A stretch of DNA of 36,844 nt from an uncultured Prevotellaceae bacterium (GTDB lineage Bacteria > Bacteroidota > Bacteroidia > Bacteroidales > Muribaculaceae): positions 1-36,844 of the forward strand of contig ONYP01000032.1 in the NCBI GenBank assembly GCA_900322135.1, in the 5' to 3' direction. The notes beneath the pieces were generated by a model. It did no database searches. It saw only the letters and a list, made by a program, of their open reading frames with translations, and had not been told where the DNA came from. Below, in pieces: positions 5,073 to 31,665 of the stretch. How positions within the stretch are numbered: the first letter of the stretch is position 1; each line of letters starts with the position of its first letter. A program made the position numbers and the translations under genes.

Positions 5073-5681
5073 TTACTTGGTTTCCTTCAGGGCGGTGCCG
5101 TCATAGGTCAGACCCTCGAGTTTTTCCTTGCGGTTCACGCCGCCGAAGTACTTCTGCACCTTAATCTTGCGCTGCAGCTGCATGAGGGCATAGAAGAATG
5201 CCTCGGGACGGGGCGGACATCCAGGCAGATAGACATCAACAGGGATAATCTCGTCAACGCCCTTGACCACACAGTAGCTGTTCTTGAACGGACCGCCGCT
5301 GACGGTGCAGGAGCCACAGGCAATGACATACTTGGGCTCGGCCATCTGCTCATACAATCGCTTCAATGCGGGAGCCATACGGTAGTTGATGGTGCCCTGG
5401 CACATGATGTAGTCGGCCTGGCGGGGGCTGTTGCGAGCCACCTCAAAGCCGTAACGCGCCATGTCATAGCGGGCAGCGCCCAGGCACATGAACTCGATAG
5501 CACAGCAACTGGTACCGAAGCACAATGGCCAGAGCGAGTTGCTCACGCCCCAGTTCATCAACTGGTCCAGCTTGCCCACCACGATATTGGTGCCGCTGGC
5601 CTGCAGTTGCTCAACCAGGCTATCGATATACTCGTTGTCCTTGAAGTCCTCATGCTTCATCGACTTGATTTTCACTTCCAT
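5073..5681 (-). CDS. nuoB: NADH-quinone oxidoreductase subunit B
   Basis: NuoB holds iron-sulphur cluster N2, which reduces quinone. I place the start at the ATG 5679-5681 because a good Shine-Dalgarno-like AAAGGAG lies about 7 nt upstream and because the native nuoA stop (TGA at 5672-5674 in another frame) overlaps this start. The 202-residue product contains LCFGTSCCAIEFMCLGAARYD (two parts: the vicinal CC and the AARYD loop), then ACGSCTVSGG and YLPGCPPRPE, which together supply the N2 cysteines. The frame is open further upstream to 6023 only because nuoA is frameshifted into it; a 316-residue NuoA-NuoB fusion is possible on paper but would probably place NuoB on the wrong side of the membrane. 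Confidence 0.93.
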   Translation of the reverse strand: MEVKIKSMKHEDFKDNEYIDSLVEQLQASGTNIVVGKLDQLMNWGVSNSLWPLCFGTSCCAIEFMCLGAARYDMARYGFEVARNSPRQADYIMCQGTINYRMAPALKRLYEQMAEPKYVIACGSCTVSGGPFKNSYCVVKGVDEIIPVDVYLPGCPPRPEAFFYALMQLQRKIKVQKYFGGVNRKEKLEGLTYDGTALKETK

Positions 5682-6023
5682 CTCAACGCTCCTTTCTTCC
5701 AGGCATAAGCCAGACCTAACTACAGCAAACATTGCCTTACCGCCAATGCTCTTGCAGATGGTTGCCCATGGGAACAAGAAAACCGTCTCCACATCAAACA
5801 TCAGGAACAGGATGGCAAACAGGTAATAACCCACATGATACTGGGCCATCGAATCGCCACGGGTGGGGATACCGCACTCAAAGGCCTCACCTTTCTTCTT
5901 AGTGTAGCTGCGCGGGCCAACAAGCCACGCAATAATCAGGGCACTGGCTACAAGCAACACGCCGGTCAAGGCCGCCGTGACTGGGAAAGCCGTGCTCTGA
6001 AGTCCGAAAATTGCTAATTCCAT
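5672..6023 (-). pseudogene. nuoA: NADH-quinone oxidoreductase subunit A, internally deleted and frameshifted
   Basis: NuoA is a three-helix membrane subunit. Codons 1-102 (from ATG at 6023) give normal NuoA: helix 1, the loop PRSYTKKKGEAFECGIPTRG, helix 2 and YYLFAILFLMFDVETVFLFP. At about 5717 the frame changes. The standard C-terminus, GLAYAWKKGALRWK followed by TGA, is present at 5672-5716 but in a different frame, with one stray base between. Compared with remembered homologues only about 15 residues, not about 22, lie between FPWA and GLAYAW, so roughly 20-23 nt of helix 3 appear to be missing. As read, the upstream frame continues into nuoB. It is either a real lesion or an assembly error. 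Its promoter is at 6157-6188. Confidence 0.85.
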
Positions 6024-27112: not shown

Positions 27113-27340
27113 CAGTCTAAAAGACAAACGAGAGAAAATTGAAATCACTTTGTTGAACTATTAATACAACACGATTATGAAAACTTCTGTTACAAAAATC
27201 ATGATGAGCTTCGCTCTCATGGGATGCCTGATCTTCAGTGCATCGGACGCAATGGCCCAGGGCCGCAGTCGTTCTCAAGGGGGCAGCACCAGCAGCAGAA
27301 GCCAGTCGGCAGCTGTCTCACGCTCTAACACTTCAACGGC

Positions 27341-27510
27341 ACCGCAGGTGAGCCGCAGTTCAAGTAGCTCCAGCAGCCGCTCGACGGCAACCCCGCAGGT
27401 GAGCCGCAGTTCAAGCAGCAGCTCCAGCAGCCGCTCGACGGCAACCCCGCAGGTAAGCCGCAGCTCGAGCAGCACCAGCAGCCGCTCGACGGTAACCCCT
27501 CAGGTGAACC
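27341..27510 (+). repeat. Imperfect tandem repeats, about 51-54 bp
   Basis: Four starts of CCGCAGGT-GAGCCGCAG-like units occur near 27342, 27393, 27447 and 27498, encoding PQVSRSSSS...RSTAT in frame. The Ser tract length varies between copies, consistent with slippage in multiples of three. Confidence 0.75.
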
Positions 27511-27836
27511 GTACAACCAGCGATCGCACCAACACGGTGAGCACTCCCAGCAGTGTGAGCCGTCCCTCGAACAACTCCAATTCCAACGGAGGCTCTCAGG
27601 TGAGCCGTCCCAACTCGGGCTCGAGCCGCCCTGGCGGCGCTACGACCCGCGGCGGCGATAACGGCAACAAGCCCAATGGTGGCAAGCCCAACAGCGGCAG
27701 CAACACTGGCAGCACGGTGACCCGCCACAGCGACAGCGGTTCGCATGTGGGCACCAGCAGCACCAACATGGACCGCACAAACAACAGGACTGCAGCCGAC
27801 ATCAGTGGCCACAATCCTAGCGGAAAGCCTGGTAAC

Positions 27837-27983
27837 GGCGGAAAGCCTGGCGGCAAGCCCGACAATGGCGGAAAGCCTGGTGGCAAGCCCGACAACGGCG
27901 GAAAGCCTGGTGGCAAGCCCGACAACGGCGGAAAGCCTGGTGGCAAGCCCGACAACGGCGGAAAGCCTGGTGGCAAGCCCGAC
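27837..27983 (+). repeat. Exact 30-bp tandem repeats
   Basis: Units begin at 27841, 27871, 27901, 27931 and 27961 (the last incomplete) and encode the ten-residue unit GGKPGGKPDN. The later copies look identical or nearly so, indicating recent expansion. The frameshift lies at the end of the last copy. Confidence 0.9.
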
Positions 27984-28561
27984 ACCACTACCGCGATCAG
28001 TTCAGCTGGAACCACTCACATCACAACTGGAGTCGTCCGCTGCCTCCTCCCGTCCGTCACTATCGCCCTGCTCCTATCGTATGGTATCGCCCTGTAATCC
28101 CTGTAGGCTGGCACTACTACTACAATGCTCCCTATATCGACAGGATTCTGGGTCTGACCTTCGGATCGCTCTTTGACACTTCGCTCGACTATCTGTACTA
28201 CAATGGCTATGAGATAGACGGCTATGCCGACAACATCATCTACCTGAGAAATGTGCGTCTGCTGAACCTCCTCTGGGACGATGTCATGCTCTGCTACGAT
28301 AGTCACAACCAATTGGTCAACGCACAGTTTGTCTTCCAGACCAGCTACTACGACCGTCACCGTTACGAGAGGGTTTACAATAGCCTCTGCAGAGTATATG
28401 GTACACCCTTCACCAACGACCACGGTACCCTGAGCTGGTACGGCGGCAACAACACCGGCTGGGTCACCCTCTCGATGAATGAGAATCTGGGACACTGCTA
28501 CACGACGCTGTCGATTGGGTACTAAAAAAGAAACTTTCATACGCACGATAATTCCTAATGT

Positions 28562-28849: not shown

Positions 28850-29770
28850 ATGACACGATTGGAATTGAACATATTGGGCTGCGGTAGCGCGACAATGACG
28901 CCACGCCACCAGCCGTCGTGCCAGGTGCTGAATGTCCGCGACAACCTGATGATGATTGATTGCGGTGAGGGGGCACAGCTGTCTGCACGAATCATGCGTA
29001 TCAAACTGATGCGGATGAACCATATATTTATCAGCCATCTGCACGGCGACCACTGCTTTGGTCTGCCAGGCATGATATCCACCATGGCACTGCTGAACCG
29101 CACCGCCTCGCTCACGATCCACACCTTCAAGGACGGTGCAGCATTGTTCTCACAGATACTGGACTACTTTTGCCGCGAACGCCCGTTCGAGGTGCGTTTC
29201 AACATCATCGACACCCACAAGCGTGTCATCCATGAGGACAGCGCCGTTACCGTTACCACATTCCCCCTGGTGCACCGCGTTCCCGCCGTGGGATTTCTGA
29301 TTCAGGAAAAGCCCAAATTGCGCCACATCATCGGCGAGGAGGTCAATCGCCTGGGTATACCCCACTATGCCATCAGCGCGTTGCAGCATGGCGAAGACTG
29401 GGTAACCCCTGAGGGTATCGTCATCCCCAACCGACAGCTCACCACCGATGCCGACCCGGCAATCAGCTATGCCTACTGCAGCGATACCAAATTCTCCAAA
29501 CGCGTTATCCGCAATGTTGAGGGAGTAGACTGGCTATACCACGAGGCCACCTATGACGACAGCCTGCGCATCAAGGCCCGCAAGCGTTACCACAGCACCG
29601 CACTGGAAGCAGCCACCGTTGCCCGCGAGGCCGGCGTGAAGCAACTCATCCTGGGCCACTATTCCAAACGCTACCTCGACGAGACGCCATTGCTCGATGA
29701 GGCCCGCACCATCTTCCCCAACACCCGTCTGGCCAACGAGGGGCTGGTCATCGACCTGAATCAACCCTGA
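28850..29770 (+). CDS. rnz: Ribonuclease Z (tRNA 3'-processing endonuclease)
   Basis: RNase Z cuts the 3' trailer from tRNA precursors. The 306-residue metallo-beta-lactamase-fold protein starts MTRLELNILGCGSATMTPRH, with the zinc motif HLHGDH at residues 63-68, the later FPLVHRVPAVGF histidine, YCSDTKF (metal-bridging Asp) and HSTALEAA and GHYSKRY, characteristic of the short bacterial RNase Z. Length and motifs are normal. It is a single gene; no terminator was recognised after it. The small unit upstream (28742-28814) may or may not be related. Confidence 0.96.
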   Translation: MTRLELNILGCGSATMTPRHQPSCQVLNVRDNLMMIDCGEGAQLSARIMRIKLMRMNHIFISHLHGDHCFGLPGMISTMALLNRTASLTIHTFKDGAALFSQILDYFCRERPFEVRFNIIDTHKRVIHEDSAVTVTTFPLVHRVPAVGFLIQEKPKLRHIIGEEVNRLGIPHYAISALQHGEDWVTPEGIVIPNRQLTTDADPAISYAYCSDTKFSKRVIRNVEGVDWLYHEATYDDSLRIKARKRYHSTALEAATVAREAGVKQLILGHYSKRYLDETPLLDEARTIFPNTRLANEGLVIDLNQP

Positions 29771-29832: not shown

Positions 29833-30062
29833 AGAAAAAATCACCCCCCGATTAAACCCTGGAGCCACCCCATAGTCCAATGGGTGAATTTTTGCACCGG
29901 GAAGGTTTTAAGGAAAAACACAAAGGTGTAAAAGTGAGAATTTATGACATTTTTTAACGGTCTAATGAAGTAAAAACTTTAAAAATTTGTTTAAAAACAC
30001 TGTGTCTCACCGACATTAAGTCTAAAAATTCAACAACGAGGCTCAAATTGAGTAAATTTTTC

Positions 30063-30093
30063 TTTATTATTTGAAGAATTTGTATTTCCTTTG
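30063..30093 (+). promoter_or_regulatory. Possible acpP promoter
   Basis: TTTA (30063-30066) is followed after 19 nt by TTCCTTTG (30086-30093), near-consensus. The predicted leader is about 50 nt. Confidence 0.5.
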
Positions 30094-30150
30094 CAGTCTC
30101 AAAATTGTGAACATACATTTTTAACAATAACTATTTTAAAATTTACGACT

Positions 30151-30295
30151 ATGTCAGAAATTGAAGAAAGAGTAAAACAAATTATCGTTGACAAGTTAGG
30201 TGTTAGCGAGTCTGAGGTAACTCCCGAGGCTAGAGACCATCCAAAATGTAGGCGACGCCATCAAGTTCATTGAGGAGGCAAAGGCCGCTGAATAA
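30151..30295 (+). pseudogene. acpP: Acyl carrier protein gene with internal deletion
   Basis: AcpP carries growing fatty acids on a phosphopantetheine arm. The first 27 codons (MSEIEERVKQIIVDKLGVSE through EVTPEA) are typical. The last 19 (TIQNVGDAIKFIEEAKAAE, then TAA at 30293-30295) are also typical but in another frame. Only four bases (30232-30235) separate them, where about 34 codons are expected, including the DSL motif whose Ser takes the prosthetic group and helix II. About 98 nt appear deleted, shifting the frame so the product as read ends RDHPKCRRRHQVH. The gene cannot encode a working ACP. As acpP is normally essential and single-copy, suspect an assembly deletion or another acpP elsewhere. 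fabF follows. Confidence 0.9.
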
Positions 30296-30305
30296 AAAAT
30301 CTTTC

Positions 30306-30363
30306 AGGTGGATACCATGATCGTGCCTCAAGCATGAGGACATCTCATGGCATCCACCTTTTT
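30306..30363 (+). terminator. Compound hairpin with T-run between acpP and fabF
   Basis: AGGTGGATACCATGA (30306-30320) pairs with TCATGGCATCCACCT (30345-30359) with one mismatch; an inner CCTCA/TGAGG hairpin (30326-30339) fills the loop; TTTTT follows. It begins 10 nt after the acpP stop and ends 22 nt before the fabF ATG. A partial terminator could set a higher ratio of acpP to fabF message. Confidence 0.75.
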
Positions 30364-30381: not shown

Positions 30382-31665
30382 ATGGAATTAAAGCGAGTAG
30401 TGGTAACAGGTCTGGGTGCCATCACTCCCTTAGGTTTGGACGTTGAGACCACATGGGACAACGCCCTTAAAGGGATGAGCGGCGCAGGACCTATTACTCA
30501 TTTTGACACAACACTTTTCAAGACAAAGTTTGCTTGCGAGCTCAAGGGCTTTGATCCGCTGAACTATGTGACCGACCCCAACGACCGCCGTGAGGTAAAG
30601 GACTTCAAGCGCAACGACCTGTACACCCAGTATGCGCTGGCCTGTGCCAAACAAGCCGTTGAGGACGCCAACCTGCTTGCCGACGGTATCGACCGCGACG
30701 AGATAGGTGTCATTTTCGCGTCAGGTATCGGTGGACTTCACACCTTTGAAGACCAGGCTGGCGACTATGCCAAGCATGAGGATCGCGGCCCGATGTACAG
30801 CCCGTTCTTTATCCCGACGATGATCGCCGATATCGCCGCAGGCCAGATTTCCATCAAGTACGGTTTCCGCGGTCCTAATTTCGGTGTCGTTTCGGCATGC
30901 GCTACCTCGACCAATGCGCTTATCGATGCTTTCAACTATGTCCGTCTGGGCAAGGCCAAAGCCATTGTCACCGGCGGCAGTGAGGCTCCGTTGTTCCCTG
31001 CAGGCGTTGGCGGATTCAATGCCATGAAGGCCATCTCGCTTCGCAACGACGACCCCGAGGGCGCATCACGCCCCTTCAGCGGTTCTCGTGACGGCTTCGT
31101 GATGGGCGAGGGCGGTGTGTGCCTCGTGTTTGAAGAGCTCGAGCACGCCCTGGCACGCGGTGCCAAGATCTATGGCGAGGTCATTGGCGGCGGCATGAGT
31201 GCCGATGCCTATCACATCACCGCCAGCCACCCCGAGGGCTTGGGTGCCAAGCTCGTGATGCAACGCGCCATCGAGGATGCCGGCATCAAGGCCGAGGATA
31301 TTGACTATGTCAATGCCCATGGCACCTCCACTCCTGTCGGTGACTTGAGCGAGGCCCAGGCCATCAAGGATGTTTTTGGCGAGCACGCATTCGAGCTCAA
31401 TGTGAGCAGCACCAAGTCGATGACAGGCCACATGCTGGGAGCCACTGGCGCCATGGAAGCAGTATTCTGCCTGCTTGCCTGCCGTGACGACATCATTCCT
31501 CCCACCATCAACCACGCCGATGGTGATGAGGACGAGCACATCGACTATAAGATGAACTTCACATTCAACAAGCCCCAAAAGCGTACAGTGAACATTGCAC
31601 TGTCCAACACTTTTGGTTTCGGCGGACATAATGCCAGCATCATTGTCAAGAAGTACCAGAAATAA
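30382..31665 (+). CDS. fabF: 3-oxoacyl-[acyl-carrier-protein] synthase II
   Basis: FabF condenses malonyl-ACP with acyl-ACP to lengthen fatty acids. The 427-residue product starts at ATG 30382 (MELKRVVVTGLGAITPLGLD); the 16 upstream in-frame codons fall inside the hairpin at 30306-30363. The catalytic triad is complete: Cys173 in SACATST, His313 in NAHGTSTP and His350 in SMTGHMLGATG. It ends FGFGGHNASIIVKKYQK, the usual FabF C-terminus. acpP lies upstream and rnc downstream (29 nt), the conserved order of this cluster. The gene itself shows no damage, in contrast with acpP. Confidence 0.98.
   Translation: MELKRVVVTGLGAITPLGLDVETTWDNALKGMSGAGPITHFDTTLFKTKFACELKGFDPLNYVTDPNDRREVKDFKRNDLYTQYALACAKQAVEDANLLADGIDRDEIGVIFASGIGGLHTFEDQAGDYAKHEDRGPMYSPFFIPTMIADIAAGQISIKYGFRGPNFGVVSACATSTNALIDAFNYVRLGKAKAIVTGGSEAPLFPAGVGGFNAMKAISLRNDDPEGASRPFSGSRDGFVMGEGGVCLVFEELEHALARGAKIYGEVIGGGMSADAYHITASHPEGLGAKLVMQRAIEDAGIKAEDIDYVNAHGTSTPVGDLSEAQAIKDVFGEHAFELNVSSTKSMTGHMLGATGAMEAVFCLLACRDDIIPPTINHADGDEDEHIDYKMNFTFNKPQKRTVNIALSNTFGFGGHNASIIVKKYQK

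Follow-up and report, generated by a model that had tools for sequence, protein, structure and literature searches.

Local assembly errors, as described by Chen et al. 2020 (PMC7111523), are stretches of wrong consensus inside scaffolds that yield incorrect protein-coding genes in databases; they occur several to a genome, and IDBA-UD is suspected of being especially prone to them. The defect described below would be of the same kind, but the criterion of Chen et al. is read support, whereas here the case is judged from assembled sequences alone. The two RUG papers (PMC5830445, PMC6785717) describe single-sample IDBA-UD assembly and MEGAHIT co-assembly, which may not be the assembler that produced the present contig; two of the genomes discussed below, G052 (RUG379) and G066 (RUG11934), appear from their names to belong to these papers. 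Our literature search returned no report on misassembly or frameshift of the acyl carrier protein (ACP) in metagenome-assembled genomes (MAGs), and PMC8172020 offers general remarks on misassembly only. We infer that local errors may have a preference for a gene that is conserved between species.

The acpP locus of the window

The DNA analysed (the window) is a contig of 36,844 nucleotides, designated C118, from a MAG of an uncultured Prevotellaceae bacterium that comprises 3.09 Mb in 145 contigs and is 82.55% complete. Upstream of acpP the window carries an intact gene on the forward strand that we take to be rnz (28850-29770), which matches its relatives at full length. The intact downstream gene (30382-31665, forward strand) is presumably fabF, a name that agrees with the initial annotation; it matches its relatives at full length and its product is 95-96% identical to those of G059 and G095. 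The order rnz-acpP-fabF is the same in the relatives compared, so that the position before fabF previously assigned to acpP is confirmed. The locus thus resembles the gene for AcpP, the ACP of type II fatty acid synthesis (PF00550), in its two ends and in its place before fabF, but it lacks the middle with the serine that carries phosphopantetheine, and its reading frame is shifted.

BLASTN comparison with the intact 243-nt acpP of G059, whose contig is the same as that of record RUG575, resolves the locus into two forward-strand fragments with no intervening base. The 5' fragment (30151-30232) corresponds to nt 1-82, that is codons 1-27 plus one base, and is 100% identical to the reference over 82 nt. 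The 3' fragment (30233-30295) corresponds to nt 181-243, comprising codons 61-80 and the stop, is 90.5% identical over 63 nt and lies in a different frame. At the junction between them (30232/30233, no strand assigned), where zero bases overlap relative to the reference, 98 nt of the intact relatives (nt 83-180) are gone, including the codon for the serine of the DSL motif that carries phosphopantetheine. As 98 is not a multiple of three the frame is shifted, and in translation the ACP frame that starts at 30151 is kept through codon 27 and then reaches a stop, leaving no single frame of about 78-80 codons. The DNA as it stands cannot encode a carrier protein. These results agree with the initial annotation, which had described at 30151-30295 an acpP with both ends present, a central deletion of 98 nt including the DSL motif, and a frameshift; its coordinates were correct.

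There is no Pfam match to the acpP fragment, and the window contains no N characters. When the position of the gap was checked in relatives in which both acpP end motifs were found (plus-strand loci only), all 15 contained 98 nt more than the window; in this comparison the G052 locus (L015) is itself broken, and the 3' motif of L034 is too diverged for detection, yet its gene reads whole. Slippage between direct repeats has left no sign, since the window fragments abut without a shared base relative to the reference. Decay of a pseudogene is likewise unsupported, given the perfect identity of the 5' fragment to that of a relative.

The surroundings of the gene show further features. The leader of acpP (30040-30150) is strongly conserved between species, the leader together with the 5' part of the gene being 90-99% identical in many of them, and by eye 8 of 29 relatives carry an extra insert of several dozen nucleotides in the leader. 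A hairpin followed by a run of T lies between acpP and fabF (30306-30359, forward strand; -30.4 kcal/mol, z -6.0). Judged by eye among the relatives in the alignment listed, it is present with a variable loop in 15 of 29 and absent in 14. No Rfam family scored above its own threshold in the window.

acpP in the genus and in the MAG of the window

An ACP match at E 1e-10 was obtained in 94 of 101 genomes of the genus. The match is full-length (from residue 1 or 2 to residue 76-80) in 91, including the one-contig genome G004, and partial in three, namely G052, G071 and G066. The seven genomes lacking a match at this threshold are the MAG of the window, G002 and five others; G002 gave no match at E 0.001 either. 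The acpP of G358 itself was not found, the best match there being 35% identical. A family-wide search returned ACP matches in at least 374 of 397 genomes. Three of the 58 more distant whole copies contrasted below contain one TAA within the matched range, which ends at residue 79.

The three partial matches represent broken genes. Comparison with intact acpP by a BLASTN-type procedure showed that 107 nt are missing in G052 and 89 nt in G071, and reading of the G066 sequence showed the loss of 31 nt at the 3' end, stop included. None of the four gaps (98, 107, 89 and 31 nt) is divisible by three and their sites differ in all four MAGs. Broken acpP genes are confined to a group with near-identical ACP, in which they account for 4 of 37 genomes (the four broken ones plus 33 whole copies with 93% identity or more to the query), as against 0 of 58 others, which have more distant whole copies (Fisher p = 0.021; the groups were defined after the data had been seen, and four broken genomes make up the enrichment).

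A search pattern matching the acpP start retrieved 29 stretches from named species genomes, all of them MAG or uncultured-bacterium records: 20 carry RUG names, four are RGIG records with ruminants in their titles and five are metaWRAP bins whose titles give no source. The gene aligns over all 243 nt in 26 of these, is broken in L077 (G066) and L078 (G052), and is truncated in L079, where the stretch ends. Contig ends also fall at this gene, although we do not count them in support of assembly error: in G030, contigs C55 and C37 (L042 and L041) share an overlap of exactly 112 nt where acpP begins and are unjoined, and in both G331 and G343 a contig begins within acpP.

The initial annotation had reasoned that a true deletion would require a second ACP gene and had proposed searching the genome for one. 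This search was run on the MAG of the window both by protein family and by protein, and no second ACP of the fatty-acid type was found in its 82.55% complete sequence. With an intact ACP of the genus as query, only the two fragments of the acpP locus matched at E 0.001, residues 59-80 being recovered at the 3' fragment. PF00550 identified five other carrier domains, three of which are parts of very large open reading frames (1453 and 2418 aa). The remaining two are discrete carriers of 81 and 98 aa on contig C73, neither of which is matched by the ACP query at E 0.001. The MAG has two matches to PF01648, so that carrier-protein modifying enzymes are present. Nor was a second close copy of ACP found in the genomes of the genus at E values up to 1e-10, second matches, where there are any, being 33-55% identical.

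Conservation, junctions and other interrupted genes

Among the four neighbouring genes acpP is the most conserved in DNA. Mean pairwise identity across 31 loci is 0.947 for acpP, 0.877 for fabF and 0.813 for rnz, and it is 0.822 for rnc in 16 loci. The fraction of 31-mers shared with one or more other species is 0.76 for acpP, 0.32 for fabF, 0.11 for rnz and 0.17 for rnc. The 33 whole copies of acpP all differ from one another in DNA, and 187 of 243 columns are invariant. Across 32 genomes (33 loci) neither fabF nor rnz shows an internal break (fabF of G066 being seen in part); these genes are four to five times the length of acpP, and their shortened matches stop at the ends of loci. The breaks in acpP therefore do not reflect a general rate per base.

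The junctions themselves fit less well with an error of assembly. The joins of the window and of G071 have zero bases of overlap, that of G052 has a single base, and that of G066 lies at a run of A. Such blunt or near-blunt joins are unlike the k-mer overlaps expected when an assembly graph is joined, and we count them against assembly error. Sharing between species is high for acpP as a whole. The left arm of the window junction (31 nt) matches 12 of 33 other loci, but the first 15 nt to the right of the junction match none of the 33, which also counts against assembly error. Similarly, the 31-nt arms of G066 have matches in 21 and 0 of the 33 loci, and both arms are shared only in G071 (24 and 23 of 33) and G052 (6 and 9 of 33).

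Further genes are interrupted in the same assemblies. In the window a gap of 23 nt in nuoA at 5719/5720 merges nuoA and nuoB into one frame of 316 aa (5073-6023, reverse strand), in which Oxidored_q4 and Oxidored_q6, the Pfam families on which these two names rest, are both detected; the gap is seen in alignment, and the six relatives shown have a frame of its own for each of the two genes. The gap ends at the start of a stretch that is nearly identical among 11 aligned genomes, the window included. This 316-aa frame could be mistaken for a gene fusion. A repeat-rich gene (27177-28525, forward strand) is split into two frames near 27974-27983; six relatives have it as a single frame of about 450-512 aa. 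The split sits near GGKPDN-like repeats, and may be either an error of repeat collapse or a real break. In G052 about 120 nt are missing from a gene that from its sequence we take to be nuoH, and in G071 four nt are missing from a gene that is presumably atpD.

In all, 21 genes were compared, with G059 as the reference, which cannot itself show breaks, and with acpP and G066 outside the comparison; a twenty-second gene (440 aa) was dropped, as it is short in the five other genomes with a match and antisense to two window genes. Among the MAGs with a broken acpP, interrupted genes number 2 of 18 in the window (nuoA and the repeat-rich gene), 1 of 21 in G052 (nuoH) and 1 of 21 in G071 (atpD). 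None was found in the three genomes compared that have an intact acpP (0 of 21 in G095, 0 of 17 in G029 and 0 of 21 in G100).

Origin of the gap

We consider that the gap in the acpP of the window is very probably a local assembly error and not the loss of an essential gene, a view based on comparison of assembled sequences. The gene is whole in relatives (91 of 101 genomes) and the defect differs between assemblies, with four different deletions, which together favour this reading. It is also supported by the undecayed state of the 5' fragment (100% over 82 nt), by the lack of any other ACP of the fatty-acid type in a MAG that encodes the enzymes for modifying carrier proteins, and by the other broken genes in the MAGs with a broken acpP. 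The high DNA identity of acpP between species, the restriction of its breaks to genomes with near-identical ACP, the unbroken state of the longer fabF and rnz, and the nuoA gap that ends at a nearly identical stretch point the same way. Genuine loss of every one of these broken genes is far less likely than assembly errors. Of the two alternatives previously offered, assembly collapse is thus favoured, short of proof, by the relatives, and a true deletion backed by a second ACP gene found no support in the MAG. Such an error could arise if several species with near-identical acpP were present in one sample, so that reads from the conserved stretch could not be assigned and the assembler would halt on both sides of it. 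Later joining, by paired reads, scaffolding or local assembly, might then fuse the two ends and leave out the middle.

It is very unlikely that the deletion is real and tolerated through a second acpP in a part of the genome outside the MAG. About a sixth of the genome may be missing at 82.55% completeness, and both the clean 98-nt gap and the undecayed 5' fragment would suit a real deletion, but no second close copy was found in genomes of the genus at E values up to 1e-10, the deletions differ from MAG to MAG, and more breaks in conserved genes are found on the same contig and in two other MAGs with a broken acpP. We regard it as highly improbable that the lineage recently lost its canonical acpP and conducts fatty acid synthesis on another carrier, for example a discrete carrier on C73 or one outside the bin.

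Two further explanations were considered. The assembler could have taken up a real variant from a subpopulation of dying or mutant cells while most cells had a whole acpP. Cells without ACP should not grow, as type II fatty acid synthesis depends on it, so that one would expect the variant to be uncommon and not to become the consensus; as it would also leave the breaks in nuoA, nuoH and atpD unexplained, we judge this extremely improbable. A chimera formed during library preparation or amplification, and not by the assembler, is consistent with the absence of overlap at two of the four junctions, but a random chimera would be confined to single reads and would show no preference for acpP over its longer neighbours, and this origin is extremely unlikely as well.

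With a local assembly error as the preferred reading, these results serve as a modest warning, in that 4 of 37 MAGs in a single group have a break in a short, essential and very conserved gene. Where a MAG lacks such a gene or has it frameshifted, gene loss should not be concluded without reads. If the gap were real, a free-living bacterium would be doing without its canonical acyl carrier protein, which would be very surprising. As biology the gap most likely does not matter, and living cells most likely carry an ordinary ACP of 80 residues.
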